64,000 nucleotides of DNA, taken from positions 310,001-374,000 of the forward strand of contig CM016929.1 in assembly GCA_006247105.1 (NCBI GenBank), read 5' to 3'. Positions 9,801-18,148 of this stretch are shown piece after piece. The notes under the pieces were generated by a model. The model did no database searches, was not told where the DNA came from, and saw nothing but the letters and a program-made list of their open reading frames with translations. This DNA is from Giardia muris. Taxonomy: Eukaryota; Fornicata; Diplomonadida; Hexamitidae. The translations under genes and the position numbers were made by a program. Positions within the stretch are counted from its first letter, which is position 1. Each line of letters opens with the position of its first letter.

Positions 9801-9810
9801 CAAAAAAATG
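9801..9810 (+). promoter_or_regulatory. A-tract initiator at ankyrin gene start
   Basis: A run of A residues leads directly into the ATG at 9808. AT-rich initiator elements at or beside the start codon are the known core promoter element in Giardia; transcripts would begin within a few bases of the ATG. The same arrangement is seen at 46781-46788 and 49971-49980. Confidence 0.45.
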
Positions 9811-11610
9811 CCTTCTGAATCGAGACAGGGTCACCATCACAATAGGGGTAGGCACGGATATAGAAGGCATTATGCGCCATCCTACAAGGAGCTTCTCCCC
9901 CTCGTCGCCGCCATGGACCTCGACGCCGTCAAGGAGCATCTGGCGGACTTCGGCTCTCCGGATCACACCCCGTTCGATGAGCTCTTGAAGACGGCCAACC
10001 AAGCCTTCGTCCTCGAGGTCGTCCAGGCCATGGGGGAGAACGGGATCTGCATTGCCAGCGACAATTTCCAGGCTGTAGAGGAGAAGACTGCCTTGATGAA
10101 GGCCGCGCAGGAAGGAAACCTTGAGGAGGTCAGGAATAACATCCTTGAGATTGGGAAGTACTGCACCTCAAACATGAGCAACACTGCGCTCCATATGGCG
10201 GCGAAAAATGGGCATGCAGACTGTGTGAGAGTGTTACGCGCGGAGGCTGGACGTTTCAATGCCAATAAGTTCACGGCGTTGATGTTGGCCCTCGCCGAGG
10301 AGAATAATGAGTGCGTGGACCTGCTCATCGACCTTGAGGCTGGGCTTCGTCATACGAGTACGGACGCTCCCACAGCCCTCAAGATAGCCCTCGAGAAGGG
10401 GCAGAGTGAGGCTGTTGGTAGTCTCGTCATGACCGAAGGAAAGTTCCTCAACTTCGGCGCTGGGAGAACCCTCTTCACCATCATTACAGAGGGTGGTTAC
10501 ACCGACGGGTGCAAGATGAAATTTCGGGCGATGTTCAATGCCTCCTGCGAGAAGTTCCACGACGCCATCGAGCGTGATGATGGGGAGACGGCCCATAGCT
10601 GCGCGGTTTGCCTTGATGGCGCCAGTCTTACAGCACTCTTCAACAAGTACATCCGCGAGAGGAATGTCGAGGCCCTTCTCATCCTAGCTGAAGCGCTCGA
10701 GGAGACCTGTAGTGAGGTCTCTCTAGAGCGCTACAGCATGGATGACCTTGCTGAGCGTGAGGGCGACGACTTCAAGAAGTTGGAGTATGAAGGCGAGCAG
10801 ATCACGTCATTGATGCAAGCGGCCATCGAGGGAGACGTTGACGGTGTCAAGAGGCACCTTGATCAGATGGGGGTCTTCACCGCCACCAAGAAGACGGCGT
10901 TCCAGTTCGCGTTCGATAAGGGGCATGAGAAATGCTGGATGTTGCTCCTTGCAGAGTTCCCGATCGCTTTGCTTCGAAACGACTTCAGGCCCCGTGCGGA
11001 CGCCATTCGTGAACAATTACGGAGGAATGCCAGTACCACGAACACCGCACAGGACCTATTGGGGGCCTCAGCGCATGTCGAGAACCTCATCGTGGATGGG
11101 AACCGGGAGTGCCTACAGCAACTGCAAGAACAACAGAAACATGCTGGAGACATCCAGCTCCATATGCGCTTCCCCGTTGGATGCCGGAAGCTCCTTCGCG
11201 AGGTGGCTCCGAAGATTGTACGTCACATACCCATGGAGAACGTCACCACCGTGGTGATCTCAAGCAAGAGTGGGACGTGGATCTGTGATATTCGCGACGT
11301 TATCATGAACATGAACGTGGACTTCTCCGATAAGATCACCCTCAAAGTCGATGAGAAGCTGGACATGGACCTTAACGTTACCGTCATATGCTCGCCCAGC
11401 GTGGCCGTTGAGCTCCTCAGTAAGTTTAATACCGTCGAGCTCCTCAACCTCGTCCCGACCATCTCGTATTCGTGTCAAAAGGGATCTTCTTCGTTATCCA
11501 AAGGAAATAGACACCGGGAGCCAAAGCCTAAGAACAGGAGGAAGGCAACGAAGAGCGACTCCGATATCCACGTCGAGTTCTCTGAGAACGAGGCCCCTAA
11601 TGACGAGTGA
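9808..11610 (+). CDS. Ankyrin-repeat protein, Protein 21.1-like
   Basis: The 600-residue protein has a His/Arg-rich N-terminus and ankyrin repeats of the Giardia type, for example KTALMKAAQEGNLEEVRNNI, NTALHMAAKNGHADCVRVL and a following FTALMLALAEENNECVDLL; repeats continue to about residue 400 in degenerate form (SLMQAAIEGDVDGVKRHL). The C-terminal ~200 residues are not ankyrin-like. It has no kinase domain, unlike the NEK-ankyrin proteins of Giardia. Such proteins are a large expanded family; partners are mostly unknown. The stop codon sits inside AGTGAAT, a poly(A)-type signal. Confidence 0.8.
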   Translation: MPSESRQGHHHNRGRHGYRRHYAPSYKELLPLVAAMDLDAVKEHLADFGSPDHTPFDELLKTANQAFVLEVVQAMGENGICIASDNFQAVEEKTALMKAAQEGNLEEVRNNILEIGKYCTSNMSNTALHMAAKNGHADCVRVLRAEAGRFNANKFTALMLALAEENNECVDLLIDLEAGLRHTSTDAPTALKIALEKGQSEAVGSLVMTEGKFLNFGAGRTLFTIITEGGYTDGCKMKFRAMFNASCEKFHDAIERDDGETAHSCAVCLDGASLTALFNKYIRERNVEALLILAEALEETCSEVSLERYSMDDLAEREGDDFKKLEYEGEQITSLMQAAIEGDVDGVKRHLDQMGVFTATKKTAFQFAFDKGHEKCWMLLLAEFPIALLRNDFRPRADAIREQLRRNASTTNTAQDLLGASAHVENLIVDGNRECLQQLQEQQKHAGDIQLHMRFPVGCRKLLREVAPKIVRHIPMENVTTVVISSKSGTWICDIRDVIMNMNVDFSDKITLKVDEKLDMDLNVTVICSPSVAVELLSKFNTVELLNLVPTISYSCQKGSSSLSKGNRHREPKPKNRRKATKSDSDIHVEFSENEAPNDE

Positions 11611-11662: not shown

Positions 11663-13897
11663 ATGTTCTCCCTTCTACCTCTTGCCCTGGTCGCTTGCGA
11701 GATAGTCTCGACGGTGAGGCAAGTGGGAGGGAGACCTTATGTTGTTGTCACTGGAATACTTGACTCAGATGCCTATGACAATGCTATCAAATACACCCTC
11801 CCACGACAACAAGGAGAGTTCTCGACAACGGGAGAGGTTGTAGGCAGTTGGGAACTTGGGTCAGAAGTTACGCTCGTCTTAGAAGCAGTATCAACCATCG
11901 TCGTTTCCTTCGATGCACATGGAGTCGTGAATAACTCAGCTGAAACCCTGGAAGAGACACAGCTCCAATGCCCACCTATCACCAATACGGATTACGGTCA
12001 CTGCCGTGCAACACCGACCGGTAACAAGGTTCGAACACTTGAGAAGGGAGATGAGCATGGAGTATGGATTCCACGCGCTCCCTCGGAGATGTACACCGTG
12101 CGCTTGGGAGTGACGCTCAAGGACTCTAATGGCGCACGTACCACGGTGGTGGAGGCTGATACTGAACACCCACGAGTCAATATCATTGGTACTCAGTCCT
12201 ACATCGAGACCATTGTCCAGCGGCCAAACCCAGCCCTATCTCTCTTTCGACACGTCGGTTATGTGGTTAACAGGCTTTCCGACGACGTATTCAAAGGGAT
12301 GAAGCTTGGGTATAATCTCGTCGGTCCACATGCCACCAATAGGCTTGGGATGAGCCCTCAAGTCTGGAAGAGAGCTGTTGAACGCACTGGCTCGGAGACT
12401 TTGATTAATGAGTTGACCTTTATCGGTTCTCCAACCGATGCCGCTGGACGCATCTACCCAGCAGATCAACTGTACCACTACCGCCAACATGCCCTCTACG
12501 TCCCACCTACCTGCAGGTGCGCTGCCGGAGGCTGTAGGCTCGAGGGTACTCAAGCCGTCGCGGTCTTCTCTTGCGAGGGCCAGCATACAACGGTGCGCTT
12601 CGCCTTACACATCTTTGGGGAGGATGTGGGACTGGTCAAGCTGATTGGAAAGCCGAAGGCGGTGTCTGCCAGCGTTCAGGTGGAACAAGGTAAGCCCATT
12701 CTCGAGATCTTGATTGGGAATGATGCGACCATGCCGGCCGTTGTACTAGCAACACTACTTCGCTGCCTTTCAAACTCCACTCGGATCGGCCCCTTCGTCC
12801 CACCTCAAGAACAACGGCTGAAGAAGCTGGTACAGAGCGGTCAGACCACATCGTTCCGCTTCCTCCTATCCAATAGCTCGGATTCCTCGTTCAATGATGC
12901 CCTAGCGCTGAACACAGGGGAGTGCGTGCTTTCCCTTGTACAGGGGAGTGGAGATGGGGCTATTTCTGACGAGGCGACCGTTCGCTGGCTTGGGGTCATC
13001 ACTGGAAAGGCGCCTGGGGTATATACTCCAATACGGGTTCCAGAACAGTGCCAAAGCCCCGACGTCTATTTCGAGCGTGATGGGGTGCCCATCTGCATGA
13101 CCAGTTGTTCCTATGACCAATGCTTCAAGCAGGATGATTATCCCATGTGCATTCCTGTCGACTGTATGGGGAAGTACGGGCACTCGAGGCCCTACTTCTC
13201 TTCAAGGAGAGGCGTTTGCGTTTCCACAGGGGAAAAGGCCGAGGAGGATGGGGTGGACTATGGCGAGCTTTTCATCCCGCAATTCATACCCTTCCAAAAT
13301 GTATCTGTGGCCTGTGGAAAGGGAGTCCCGAATAACTCGACGAATGTCTTGGCAGTTCCATGCATTTGTCCTACAAATGCTACTCGCTATGAGACTGGTC
13401 CTGATGGACTGCTTCACATGTGCCTCGACGATCTGGTCTTCGAGGAGCCCGAGATACCCATCTGGGATGACGTGGTCTTTGGAGACTTCAAGAAGTTCCT
13501 CTCAGAGATCCGTGGGAAGAGTATCTTCGAGATCCTAGGGATGTTCTTCAAGACTTCCGTTGGAAAGATTGTCGGAGGCATCCTTGGGGTCATATTGCTC
13601 CTCATCCTCATTCCAATCATCCTGAAGTGTATCCCTTGCATCTGCGGCTGCTGTACGTCCATGGGGAAGTGCTTCCGTGCTTGCCGCCCAGAAAAACAGG
13701 AGAAGCCTACGGTGATCATTAGTAGCTCTAGTGGACTACAGGTGGCATCGAGTCAGTTAACGTCGGAGATACCGTCGGAGAACCTGGTCCAGACGCCTCC
13801 ACGGAGGCCACACCGAGGTCTGCGGCCTAAGGACCTCGTCACCAACTACTTCGAGGCGGAGGCCTTACTCCAGCAGCTTCGTGGTCATGCAGCATGA
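11663..13897 (+). CDS. HAP2/GCS1-like gamete-fusion protein candidate
   Basis: The 744-residue type I membrane protein has a signal peptide (about 1-15), a roughly 620-residue ectodomain, one span (about 640-662), then a cysteine cluster (CIPCICGCC) and a basic tail. Several segments follow HAP2 order: GHC (about 112) followed by APSEMYTVRLGVTLKDSNG; a FRHVGYVV strand; NRLGMSPQVWKRAVE (about 225-240), which parallels the family's CNKIGVxYxAF block; ADQLYHYRQ (about 267), paralleling NQLWNFYEAD; then domain-III-like strands around FSCEGQHTTVRF and PPQEQRLKK...TTSFRFLL. A cysteine-rich stalk and post-TM cysteines also fit. HAP2 is a class II fusogen that merges gamete membranes. The identity is by eye; an unrelated cysteine-containing surface protein is the alternative. 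The start ATG follows CCGAAAGA. Confidence 0.55.
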   Translation: MFSLLPLALVACEIVSTVRQVGGRPYVVVTGILDSDAYDNAIKYTLPRQQGEFSTTGEVVGSWELGSEVTLVLEAVSTIVVSFDAHGVVNNSAETLEETQLQCPPITNTDYGHCRATPTGNKVRTLEKGDEHGVWIPRAPSEMYTVRLGVTLKDSNGARTTVVEADTEHPRVNIIGTQSYIETIVQRPNPALSLFRHVGYVVNRLSDDVFKGMKLGYNLVGPHATNRLGMSPQVWKRAVERTGSETLINELTFIGSPTDAAGRIYPADQLYHYRQHALYVPPTCRCAAGGCRLEGTQAVAVFSCEGQHTTVRFALHIFGEDVGLVKLIGKPKAVSASVQVEQGKPILEILIGNDATMPAVVLATLLRCLSNSTRIGPFVPPQEQRLKKLVQSGQTTSFRFLLSNSSDSSFNDALALNTGECVLSLVQGSGDGAISDEATVRWLGVITGKAPGVYTPIRVPEQCQSPDVYFERDGVPICMTSCSYDQCFKQDDYPMCIPVDCMGKYGHSRPYFSSRRGVCVSTGEKAEEDGVDYGELFIPQFIPFQNVSVACGKGVPNNSTNVLAVPCICPTNATRYETGPDGLLHMCLDDLVFEEPEIPIWDDVVFGDFKKFLSEIRGKSIFEILGMFFKTSVGKIVGGILGVILLLILIPIILKCIPCICGCCTSMGKCFRACRPEKQEKPTVIISSSSGLQVASSQLTSEIPSENLVQTPPRRPHRGLRPKDLVTNYFEAEALLQQLRGHAA

Positions 13898-13904
13898 AGT
13901 AAAA
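13898..13904 (+). promoter_or_regulatory. Poly(A)-type signal abutting next gene's ATG
   Basis: AGTAAAA begins right after the TGA at 13895-13897 and ends one base into the run that leads to the ATG at 13905. The same short A-rich stretch can serve as 3' signal for one gene and initiator for the next. Confidence 0.5.
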
Positions 13905-15542
13905 ATGAGTTGGGAAGATCTTGGGTTAGATTCACGTATTGGAGACGGACTACGGTTCCTGGGACTCTACGACCCCCTCGCGATCCAGCGGGAGGCGATC
14001 CCCAAGGCGCTGACGATGGCGGACATCCTTTGCCAGAGCTTGACCGGGAGTGGGAAAACCTTAGTGTACGTCTCCGTCATCCTTCACAAGATCATGCAAC
14101 ACCGGACTAAGAGCGTCAATGGGGTACAACAGACGTCAGCGTTAGTCACAGTTCCGACACGGGAACTCTGCGATCAAATCAATGCCGTCTTTGAGGAGCT
14201 TCAAGGGTGTTTTGAGACGGCCAATTTCTCCATCACAAGCTTGAGTTTGACAGAGAAGAAGCTATCCAACAGCTCCCTGGTCGCCCTACGTTCAAAGCCG
14301 GACGTTGTGATCTCAACCCCAGCTCTACTCGCACAGGTCATTACAAGTGGCCAGCTCGAGGTACGAGGACTTCAGACCTTTGTTTGTGATGAAGCAGACG
14401 TGATCTTTGACCTGGAACATGCCGATGACCTCTTCACCTTATTGAACGTTATCCCTGCTCGAGTGCAGAAGTTGTTCTTCTCGGCGACGCTTGGGGAGAA
14501 GATCGATAGCATCAAAAGCACGTACTTGCGCGACCCGATCTTCGTCCAGCTTACAGATGCCGAGAACCGGCTACTTTCGCAGCCTGTTCAGCACCTCATC
14601 CTTCTGCCGCACAACAGCGACAAGTTCCTGGTCACCTATAGCCTCCTGAAGCTGCAGATGTTGGAGGGCTTCATCCTCATCTTTGTGAGCACGGTCAAGA
14701 CGGCTTACAAGCTCAAGATCTTCCTCTTGCGTTTTGGCTTGCGCTCTCTCCTATATAACCCTGAGTTGCCATATGCCACGAGGCAATTGGCTGTCGAACG
14801 CTTCAACCTGGGGGCGGAGCAGATCCTTATCGCCGTGGATGATAGCAATACGGCCCAGGCCACGGAAAAGGGGGATGTAGAACCAAAAGATGCAGGGATC
14901 TTCCGTGGCCTCGACTTCTCTCGACTCGACGTCGTCATTAACTTCGACTGTCCCACGTCTCGGGTCAACTATGTCCATCGGATTGGAAGGACGGCGAGAG
15001 GAGCGGGGGGCCAGGGCCATGCGATCACATACGCAGTCAGTAACGACAAGCATGAAGAAAAGGTCATCTCGGATGTAATGGAGGCTCAAATCGAGGAGTT
15101 TGAGCGCCCTCTTCTTGGGACCTTGGACCTGAACTTGGATGCGATTCGAGTATTCGAGTATCGGGTCAACGATGTCTTGCAGAGTATCACTTCTCTCATC
15201 ATTCGGAACTATCGTCTCGCCGAGATCAAAGAGGACATCATGAGCGTCGAAGCACTTCGGGAGCACTTTGAACAACAGAGTAAGGACGTCATCTTGCTTC
15301 GACAGGTCCCAACGAACGCTCTTCTTCAACGTCAACGGAGACTTACCATGCACCTCAGGTTCGTCCCCTCTTACCTTCTACCGGGTTCCAGTCCCCTTGG
15401 AGCAGGCCCTATCACGGTATCTCCGTCGCGTGGAAACGAGCATATGGCCCGTCTTCATAACCTTAAGCGGCGCGCCGAAAGGGCGATGACTAAGAGGCGT
15501 CGGGGCCCCTCCAAGGAGAGCAAGTGGCGCAAGACGCGCTAG
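13905..15542 (+). CDS. DBP9: DEAD-box RNA helicase DDX56/Dbp9
   Basis: The 545-residue helicase has all core motifs: motif I LTGSGKT (about 47-53), Ia PTRELC, DEAD (about 163), SAT (about 191), a FVSTVKTAYKLKIFLLRFG block and HRIGRTAR (about 357). The sequence follows DDX56/Dbp9 specifically: the opening LGLDSRI, the FRGLDFSRLDVVINFDCP segment, YRVNDVLQSITSLIIRNYRL, and the closing RFVPSYLLPGSSPLG, all family-specific. Dbp9 acts in 60S ribosomal subunit assembly in the nucleolus; the basic tail (KRRAERAMTKRRRGPSK) would suit nucleolar targeting. The ATG lies 7 bp after the upstream stop. An in-frame GTG at 13881 would overlap the HAP2-like gene and is rejected. Confidence 0.9.
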   Translation: MSWEDLGLDSRIGDGLRFLGLYDPLAIQREAIPKALTMADILCQSLTGSGKTLVYVSVILHKIMQHRTKSVNGVQQTSALVTVPTRELCDQINAVFEELQGCFETANFSITSLSLTEKKLSNSSLVALRSKPDVVISTPALLAQVITSGQLEVRGLQTFVCDEADVIFDLEHADDLFTLLNVIPARVQKLFFSATLGEKIDSIKSTYLRDPIFVQLTDAENRLLSQPVQHLILLPHNSDKFLVTYSLLKLQMLEGFILIFVSTVKTAYKLKIFLLRFGLRSLLYNPELPYATRQLAVERFNLGAEQILIAVDDSNTAQATEKGDVEPKDAGIFRGLDFSRLDVVINFDCPTSRVNYVHRIGRTARGAGGQGHAITYAVSNDKHEEKVISDVMEAQIEEFERPLLGTLDLNLDAIRVFEYRVNDVLQSITSLIIRNYRLAEIKEDIMSVEALREHFEQQSKDVILLRQVPTNALLQRQRRLTMHLRFVPSYLLPGSSPLGAGPITVSPSRGNEHMARLHNLKRRAERAMTKRRRGPSKESKWRKTR

Positions 15543-15577: not shown

Positions 15578-18148
15578 ATGGTGCTCTTGAACCCTTTGAG
15601 CTTCCTCGATTCTCTCGACCCATACCTTGAGGAGCACACCGCCGAGCTACTGGACCTCGCTCCGGACTTTGCGAGGGGACGGCAGCTGAATATCGTCCTT
15701 CTGAAACAGCTGATTCAGCTTCTCGAGACGTTCTTCGGACGTGCGGAGCAGTGCTTCGGCTTGAAGAGCCCACAACAGACCCAGGCCAAGATCCCCCACT
15801 ATCTTTATGCCAACCCCGCGACCCGACTTCCTTTGATTCAGACGATCATCGGTTCTCTTCTTGGCAACCCCATAATCAGCCGGTCCCTTCCCGAGGCAAT
15901 CGACCTTCTGGCTCAGATGCCCGCGGAGGAATTTACCCCGTTATACGCCCAGTGCTATGACGCCGTCATGCGGAGTTCGTTCTGCAAGCCAATACTCGTC
16001 TTTCTTGCAACCCATATGCCCCAAGAGCTTCAGGACATGATCGTCCAAGGTGCACGACGCTTTCACAACGTCCATATCATACCCCTTCAGTCCATCGAGT
16101 TGGCTGAGTCACGACAATATACTCTTCCACCAGAACGTCTTTATTTCCGAGAAGAGGACTGTTCATCTATGGCAGACGACGTCAAGGACGCCTCAGAGCG
16201 CGCATATATCCCAGTCGTCCTTGCGGCCCCTTGGTTCCCGAGTGGGACCAACACTTTATTCAAGGTTATCACCCTTCCTCGACGAGGTCGTCTTCAGGAC
16301 AATTTGGCGATCTCAAAGATCAACTTCCGGATCATCGACTTCGCCAATGATACCTACTTCGTCCATCTCTTCCGCTCTCCTCAATGTTATGACGCCAGCG
16401 AGCAGAGACAGATGATCGCCGATACTCGTGGGGCACGGCCTAAGCAGAGGGAGCTTGTCGAACTCCCCGTCATCAGTACTCGCCTAGCCATCGCGAACGA
16501 GCATATGGAGGAGGTCTATCGACTTCTAGGAGTGGATCCCGGGAATGTCCGATCGCGCCAGGTTTCTCGGACGATGGGAGTCCCGGGTGAAACGGCTGAA
16601 ACCCTTACCCTCGATTGCTTCTACGTTTCATTCCAATGGCTCTTGGATTCTATAAGCTTCAATGAGCTGACAGAGGTGACCGATTATGTCCCTCAGACGA
16701 TCATTCCAGTCCCCCTCTCAGGCGTCGACGAAAACACCGCACCCGCGACGGAGAACGCGTGCACGGCGGCAACGTGTTATTGCGGCCGTTGTCACTTCTT
16801 GTTCCGAGATGCGGACTGCACTGGGCATAACCTTGAGACATACTTCCCGGCGATGCGGGCGGATCCGTACCGGTACAGCGGGATCCTTGGGATATGGCGC
16901 GAGCGTCTCGGGATGCCAGAGGGCTGGACGGTGGGCCAACCGATCCAGACGCCATTGCAAGCCGTTACGGTCGAGCTCCTCTTTAAGAACACCCCAAATC
17001 GGACCAGTACGATGGAACTTAGAGACTACTCGTTCGAGACGACCGTCCCCCTCAAGGAGTTTGCGGAGCTCTTAGCAACGCCGGAAGCGGAGCCTGCACT
17101 TGTCCCAAGCGTGAGCATGAAGCTTGAGCCGATAACTCCGGCGTTCCAGCAGAACATCTTCAACTTCATCTTCAACGATTATGTCGATGCTGACACCGTC
17201 CGGATGTTGGAGCAGATCATTCGGCAAAGTGGTGACCAGCTGACACTCCGACAATACCTGAACCTTGAGGCGAGTGATGGCCGCCAGGTCAAGGTCCGCG
17301 ACCTTCTAGCAGACATTCGGTCGATGAAGTACCGATACTCAGCAGCCGTCGATACTCTCCTCTTCGATTCCATCAATTCCCCACCCCATGGACGCTGCTA
17401 CGCTGGGAGTGGGATTCCTTTGATGGCTCAGGCCCTGATAAAGGGGAAAAGCATCATGGAGGTTGGCCAGGAACAAGAACGAGCGCAGATGCAAGGAAAG
17501 GCACGACCCCACTCGTATCGAAGCCTTCCTCAGTACACACGGAATACGTGGTTCGATGATGTGTCCAGAACCTATCCTCTAGAGGAGCGGGAGTTCGAAC
17601 GGGAGTTCCAGGAAGGGATCATGACGCCCGAAGACTATGTCTTGTATCGGAACGCAATCATCACGCACTACCTGGAGTCGGGACGACGCTCTTTCAAGTG
17701 CTTCGTCCTCTATGACGTGCTACCCATCCCCGTCGACGTCATCGCAAAAATATATGAGTTCCTTGGGCGTGAGAGCCTCATCAACACAACCGTCGAACGC
17801 TCACGCTCCTTCAACCCGGTAATTTGCGCCCCTGAGAGCGATGGGTTCCTAGCCGAGGACGTCCAGAATGGAGTGGTCATCTCAGAGCCACAGGAATCCC
17901 CGGGACAACAGGTCCCGGCGGGAATCGTTCGGGACTTGCTTGATGCGCGGTATTCTCCGCCCTTTCTTCAGGCACATGCACTTCTTGGGGCGACCATCCA
18001 AACGCCGCCTGAAGGACTGGAGGAGCTAGTTTCGACCTGTGTCCAGCTGATGCGGCAGAAGCGGACGCCTCTTGGACTGGCACAAAGCGGTGCTGAGGCC
18101 ATCATTGAGACGGTCCGACTCCGGCTCGAAAGCGAGGATCAGGAGTAG
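15578..18148 (+). CDS. 856-residue protein with CxC finger-like patch, unknown
   Basis: I do not recognise this protein. It starts at the ATG behind CAAAATAG, has no signal peptide or clear span and looks globular along most of its length. A cysteine patch at about residues 390-410 reads CTAATCYCGRCHFLF and could bind a metal. The C-terminal part (about 640-740) is well ordered and charged, with EEREFEREFQEGIMTPEDYV and a following RNAIITHYLESGRRSFKCFV. The last 47 bp overlap the convergent gene at 18102-18815. Even composition and length argue for a conserved protein. Chromatin or RNA-complex scaffolds are possible but not supported. Confidence 0.75.
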   Translation: MVLLNPLSFLDSLDPYLEEHTAELLDLAPDFARGRQLNIVLLKQLIQLLETFFGRAEQCFGLKSPQQTQAKIPHYLYANPATRLPLIQTIIGSLLGNPIISRSLPEAIDLLAQMPAEEFTPLYAQCYDAVMRSSFCKPILVFLATHMPQELQDMIVQGARRFHNVHIIPLQSIELAESRQYTLPPERLYFREEDCSSMADDVKDASERAYIPVVLAAPWFPSGTNTLFKVITLPRRGRLQDNLAISKINFRIIDFANDTYFVHLFRSPQCYDASEQRQMIADTRGARPKQRELVELPVISTRLAIANEHMEEVYRLLGVDPGNVRSRQVSRTMGVPGETAETLTLDCFYVSFQWLLDSISFNELTEVTDYVPQTIIPVPLSGVDENTAPATENACTAATCYCGRCHFLFRDADCTGHNLETYFPAMRADPYRYSGILGIWRERLGMPEGWTVGQPIQTPLQAVTVELLFKNTPNRTSTMELRDYSFETTVPLKEFAELLATPEAEPALVPSVSMKLEPITPAFQQNIFNFIFNDYVDADTVRMLEQIIRQSGDQLTLRQYLNLEASDGRQVKVRDLLADIRSMKYRYSAAVDTLLFDSINSPPHGRCYAGSGIPLMAQALIKGKSIMEVGQEQERAQMQGKARPHSYRSLPQYTRNTWFDDVSRTYPLEEREFEREFQEGIMTPEDYVLYRNAIITHYLESGRRSFKCFVLYDVLPIPVDVIAKIYEFLGRESLINTTVERSRSFNPVICAPESDGFLAEDVQNGVVISEPQESPGQQVPAGIVRDLLDARYSPPFLQAHALLGATIQTPPEGLEELVSTCVQLMRQKRTPLGLAQSGAEAIIETVRLRLESEDQE

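Follow-up and report, generated by a model that had tools for sequence, protein, structure and literature searches.

Class II membrane fusogens act by inserting a loop of domain II into the opposing membrane, trimerising, and folding back domain III and the stalk. The closest known counterparts of the protein considered here are the HAP2/GCS1 proteins (Pfam family PF10699; reference structures Chlamydomonas 6e18, Arabidopsis 5ow3, Cyanidioschyzon 7s0k, and Plasmodium domain 3 7lr4), in which a domain III sandwich precedes the stalk and the transmembrane (TM) helix. A passage in PMC9259645 describes an invariant disulfide in domain III of HAP2 and other fusexins. Here we analyse a 744-residue open reading frame (ORF) of Giardia muris, at 11663-13897 on the + strand of a 64,000-nucleotide stretch ("the window": contig CM016929.1 of assembly GCA_006247105.1, positions 310,001 to 374,000, forward strand). 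The best single reading, and on balance a probable one, is that it encodes a strongly diverged fusexin, that is, a HAP2-type class II membrane fusogen. Membership of HAP2 is not established, as neither PF10699 nor the family's domain I-II blocks could be found in it. Because the membrane-inserting part cannot be recognised, we treat the gene as a testable candidate fusogen rather than a proven sex protein.

The evidence for a fusexin concerns domain III. Two protein searches, each of 5.8 billion proteins with the approximately 8,000 candidates sharing most words scored, returned three proteins among the scored candidates: the window's own (P0001), P0002 (83% identity), and P0003 (41%). A full-length AlphaFold2 model from these three sequences had a pLDDT (predicted local distance difference test) of 33.9 and was not used. 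For residues 322-460 we built a domain model from which HAP2 rows were kept out, because such rows would dictate the fold; it predicts, with moderate confidence, an Ig-like sandwich of the domain III type. Seven HAP2/fusexin entries are among the 50 structural matches listed (the absence of T. cruzi HAP2 from the 50 VIA entries carries no weight either way), and Cys368 and Cys421 fall on predicted strands C and F, as in HAP2, where they would form a disulfide. The model and these two cysteine positions together support a domain III in this part of the protein. In BFVD, one match fell at E below 0.001; the matches were mostly unnamed or phage proteins, and a few were glycoproteins of the bunyavirus type (E 0.03-0.05).

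The fold itself is common to many unrelated domains: WxLIP, galactosidase, GH2, GH3, transglutaminase, and ApaG domains match the model in the same range as HAP2 does. The protein might thus be a surface receptor or adhesin of the Giardia lineage that is unrelated to fusexins and has an Ig/Fn3-like domain beside a cysteine-rich stalk, the sandwich serving as a spacer or ligand-binding module and no membrane fusion taking place. We consider this a serious possibility, though less likely than a fusexin: seven HAP2/fusexin entries and a cysteine on each of strands C and F, as seen in a single model, would be unexpected for a random Ig/Fn3 domain.

Profile comparison also singles out domain III. 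A first hhalign run with only three HAP2 rows gave nothing. With a 21-row HAP2 profile (P0004-P0022, most of them from green algae, and one row each for Cyanidioschyzon and T. cruzi), whole proteins aligned first at the TM helix (score 34.4) and second at domain III (27.7). For the main comparison the query was the three-row Giardia profile, residues 13-620, with both sides restricted to ectodomains and column shuffles as the null; a 24-row profile added planctomycete, gammaproteobacterial, and Arabidopsis rows, and the fragments P0023 and P0024 were excluded from both profiles. Residues 315-442 align over 114 columns with HAP2 domain III and the end of domain II before it, with a score of 26.7 (21 rows; reversed profile 14.4); 0 of 200 shuffles were as good with the 21-row profile and 5 of 200 with the 24-row profile. 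For the domain alone, 0/200 and 1/200 were as good.

With the Giardia cysteines masked, the 21-row profile no longer gives the domain III alignment; with 24 rows the ectodomain alignment stays, but its score of 19.4 is close to the mean of unmasked shuffles (17.9), and for the crop only the first half of the domain is kept. Taken as a single sequence, P0003 outscored all 100 shuffles with either profile, but this was not so for P0001 (59-85 of 100 as good) or for P0002 (51-77 of 100). In a decoy set of 134 rows (128 genome ORFs, one being the 744-residue ORF itself, plus the three relatives, whole and as ectodomains), P0003 ranked sixth and its ectodomain seventh, P0002 65th and 82nd, and P0001 18th, through its cytoplasmic tail rather than domain III, its ectodomain being 116th. 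Unfiltered hmmsearch placed the P0003 ectodomain first in this set, but with an E of 1.6. Among control domains, the Fn3-like domain of E. coli bglX also beats shuffles against the HAP2 profile (0, 1, and 0 of 100 as good), over 19 columns, as might an unrelated receptor domain; the others gave 90 per 100 (lacZ), 29 (planctomycete Ig repeats), and 7 and 11 (apaG). Given the shuffle, masking, decoy, and bglX results, sequence alone offers a hint, which is limited to domain III and owes part of its strength to the two cysteines.

The overall layout is that of a type I membrane protein, as the original prediction had proposed: hydropathy and the alignment of the three relatives indicate a leader (by eye), a large ectodomain, a stem, and a single hydrophobic segment near the C-terminus, where a 19-residue hydropathy window peaks at residue 636. 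The motifs that it quoted, including NRLGMSPQVW and ADQLYHY, are present, as are the cysteines beyond the TM segment, and its diplomonad-type genome is that of Giardia muris. The features are as follows.

11663..13897, + strand: ORF for the 744-residue type I membrane protein, one copy found (ORF, genome search, hydropathy, relatives P0002 and P0003).
11663..11698, + strand: putative signal peptide, approximately residues 1-12 (hydrophobic start in the aligned relatives, by eye).
11699..12580, + strand: N-terminal ectodomain, residues 13-306, the place expected for HAP2 domains I and II (profile signal no better than shuffles).
11969..12004, + strand: Cys103-x10-Cys114 (LQC...GHC), candidate fusion loop chosen by eye (both cysteines and their spacing kept in the three relatives).
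12581..13018, + strand: domain III-like beta-sandwich, residues 307-452; the modelled residues 322-460 are 12626-13042 (profile alignment, model, structural matches).
12764..12766, + strand: Cys368, near the end of predicted strand C, in R-C-L-S-N (HAP2 N-C-S-x-N; alignment and model).
12923..12925, + strand: Cys421, at the start of predicted strand F, in GECVLSL (Chlamydomonas HAP2 RTCTVSL; alignment and model).
13019..13522, + strand: cysteine-rich membrane-proximal stalk, residues 453-620 (conservation across relatives).
13562..13630, + strand: TM segment, approximately residues 634-656 (hydropathy).
13628..13684, + strand: seven juxtamembrane cysteines, residues 656-674, probably cytoplasmic given the type I layout (sequence).
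13898..13904, + strand: AGTAAAA, polyadenylation-like, directly 3' of the stop.

The generic structural matches and the bglX result weigh against a fusexin, and so do several findings outside domain III. PF10699, the profile search proposed with the original prediction, matched 0 of 3 whole relatives, 0 of 5 pieces, 0 of 3 domain crops, and nothing in a six-frame search of the genome at E<=10; it matched three of the four HAP2 proteins used here at 7.5e-82 or better (the fragment P0024 at 0.021). Of the domain I-II blocks and cysteines of HAP2 (PTCG, SQGFCC, AHCL, CDK-G), PTCG, SQGFCC, and CDK-G are missing or altered, and by eye only a C-x10-HC pair and an NRLGMS block without a cysteine recall the set. 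Neither the N-terminal part (106/200 shuffles as good with 21 rows, 123/200 with 24) nor the middle part containing NRLGMSPQVW and ADQLYHY (133/200 and 63/200) rises above shuffles, and the stalk does not either (126/200 and 154/200). A local test placed the NRLGMSPQVW block opposite the CDKVG block with 25 of 150 shuffles as good, 44 of 150 when extended to the end of domain II, and 1 of 150 once domain III was included; a global test of three blocks in turn gave no signal (121, 51, and 84 of 150). Of the HAP2 segment order originally claimed, the domain III part is better than chance and the N-terminal, middle, and stalk parts are not; the full claim, a HAP2 with a three-domain class II fold and a fusion loop, goes beyond these results.

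Conservation tells a similar story. Identity to P0003 is 30% in each of the first two 50-residue blocks and 22-52% in the remaining blocks to residue 450, and peaks in the stalk at 72% (residues 501-550) and 62% (residues 551-600); 22 cysteines are common to all three relatives. The best conserved stretch therefore lies within the stalk, 13019-13522, and not in the N-terminal part where a fusion loop would lie. This too is what a receptor or adhesin might show, as are the lack of HAP2 profile signal in domains I-II and the finding of only two relatives among the scored candidates.

The same pattern would fit a HAP2 descendant with a degenerate domain II, which had lost fusion but still used its domain III and stalk in binding or signalling: domain III is recognisable and domains I-II are not, and the N-terminal half is less conserved than the stalk. 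We think this improbable, given an open frame and a Cys103/Cys114 pair that persists at 41% identity, although the results here would fit loss of function and fast change alike. How much change a fusexin reading implies is indicated by a control in which domains I-II of the planctomycete HAP2, as one sequence against the eukaryotic set, gave a P of 1.5e-31; for the Giardia protein to be a HAP2, far greater change than this must have taken place in its domains I-II. A more specific form of that reading is a functional fusexin whose domains I-II were rebuilt until their sequence could no longer be recognised. The Giardia muris lineage would have retained it, Giardia intestinalis would have lost it or carry it in unrecognisable form, and it would serve cell fusion or lumenal nuclear-membrane fusion in encystation or excystation; in this full form we find the reading rather unlikely. 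For Giardia intestinalis, no relative was found among the approximately 8,000 scored candidates, the presence of its proteins in the database being unverified. Searches of viral and prokaryotic contigs with two peptide patterns each returned no relatives.

If the protein is a fusexin, its fusion loop might be residues 104-113, picked by eye and post hoc, without statistical support. To the eye, it matches the HAP2 loop that is bounded by cysteines and precedes AHC; this pattern occurs in 17 of the 24 HAP2 rows, with a spacing of 10 in two (T. cruzi and P0016) and of 7-33 in the others.

Other families gave no better account of the protein. Searches of Pfam and NCBIfam matched no family at E below 0.01 (best CDC37_M, E 0.012; Prominin, 0.08; nothing below 0.06 in NCBIfam), which counts against the receptor or adhesin reading, and the better match to another cysteine-containing family that the original prediction had named as counting against it did not appear. 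When the protein and the domain were compared with PDB sequences, each as a single sequence and as a profile, neither matched HAP2 or the archaeal fusexin Fsx1 (7p4l). The best matches of these searches were scribble (E 0.6), an NADH oxidoreductase chain (E 3), and a pseudouridine synthase (E 1.8); a match of the domain profile to designed armadillo repeats (E 0.0061) was taken as chance because its total sums six stretches of 1.4-2.3 bits each. Like the Giardia variant-specific surface proteins (VSPs), the protein is a cysteine-bearing type I membrane protein of Giardia. A passage in PMC7641422 characterises VSPs by frequent ectodomain CXXC motifs and a conserved C-terminal pentapeptide; in contrast, the ectodomains of P0001 and P0002 have no CXXC and that of P0003 has one, and the tails lack GCRGK, so we do not count the protein among the VSPs. 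From HAP2 itself it also differs in its long, cysteine-rich stalk.

The gene was found in one copy in the genome searched (9.74 Mb, 52 contigs). Its frame runs from ATG to TGA; an ATG at 11351 also lies in the open frame, but that extension runs into the upstream ankyrin-repeat gene, 9808-11610. P0002 shares its start with P0001, whereas that of P0003 lies nine residues earlier. Downstream, the frame of a DEAD-box helicase ORF opens before the stop, and its in-frame ATG at 13905 lies seven bases past it; those bases are AGTAAAA, which resembles the Giardia polyadenylation signal AGTRAA. Two genes downstream, an 856-residue ORF (15578-18148) has a SWIRM domain (PF04433, 5.8e-07) towards its C-terminus.

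Two matches to PF10699 on bacterial contigs merit a description of their own. A Planctomycetota metagenome-assembled genome (MAG; DUZJ01000032.1, 4854-7568) encodes a 904-residue protein that matches PF10699 at 5.1e-61 and has three Ig-like repeats of the bacterial surface type after the matching part. MreB, MreC, LysM, and ETF-QO genes lie on the same contig, and this HAP2 therefore appears truly bacterial; it was the only PF10699 match in 392 genomes drawn from Planctomycetota. In a Gammaproteobacteria MAG (DAOWEP010000163.1, 3321-4895), a 524-residue protein matches at 1.8e-35 over model positions 33-355 of 515, with thrombospondin type 3 repeats in the place expected for domain III; on this 6.2-kb contig a PP2C/kinase gene and an MFS transporter gene adjoin it. 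Fusexins in bacterial MAGs are mentioned, with caution, in PMC9259645.

By analogy with class II fusogens, the ectodomain would trimerise, the domain II loop (candidate residues 104-113) would enter the opposing membrane, and domain III and the stalk would fold back along the trimer and draw the membranes together. It would act at whichever stage Giardia cells or nuclei fuse. Giardia muris has Mnd1 and Spo11-type genes; a search for Kar5/Tht1 found no match, but picked up no control either. Passages in PMC4413856 and PMC8113336 report meiotic genes and genetic exchange in Giardia, the former describing meiotic genes as raised in encysting cells, yet without meiosis. A passage in PMC8516963 reports conservation in metamonads of key meiotic proteins, Hap2 and Gex1 among them, and says that sexual processes have not been directly observed there; it does not name Giardia muris, and the present gene may already be among those in that paper's supplementary tables. 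In view of these reports, to call the protein direct evidence for fusion in an organism long regarded as asexual, as originally proposed, is too strong. Among the titles that a literature search on HAP2/GCS1 with Giardia or diplomonads returned, none concerned a Giardia fusogen.

The existence of true sex in Giardia has long been in question, and a single-copy candidate would make its cell-fusion step testable. If the reading as a fusexin is true, the protein would also show the extent to which a class II gamete fusogen can diverge within one genus and yet keep domain III.
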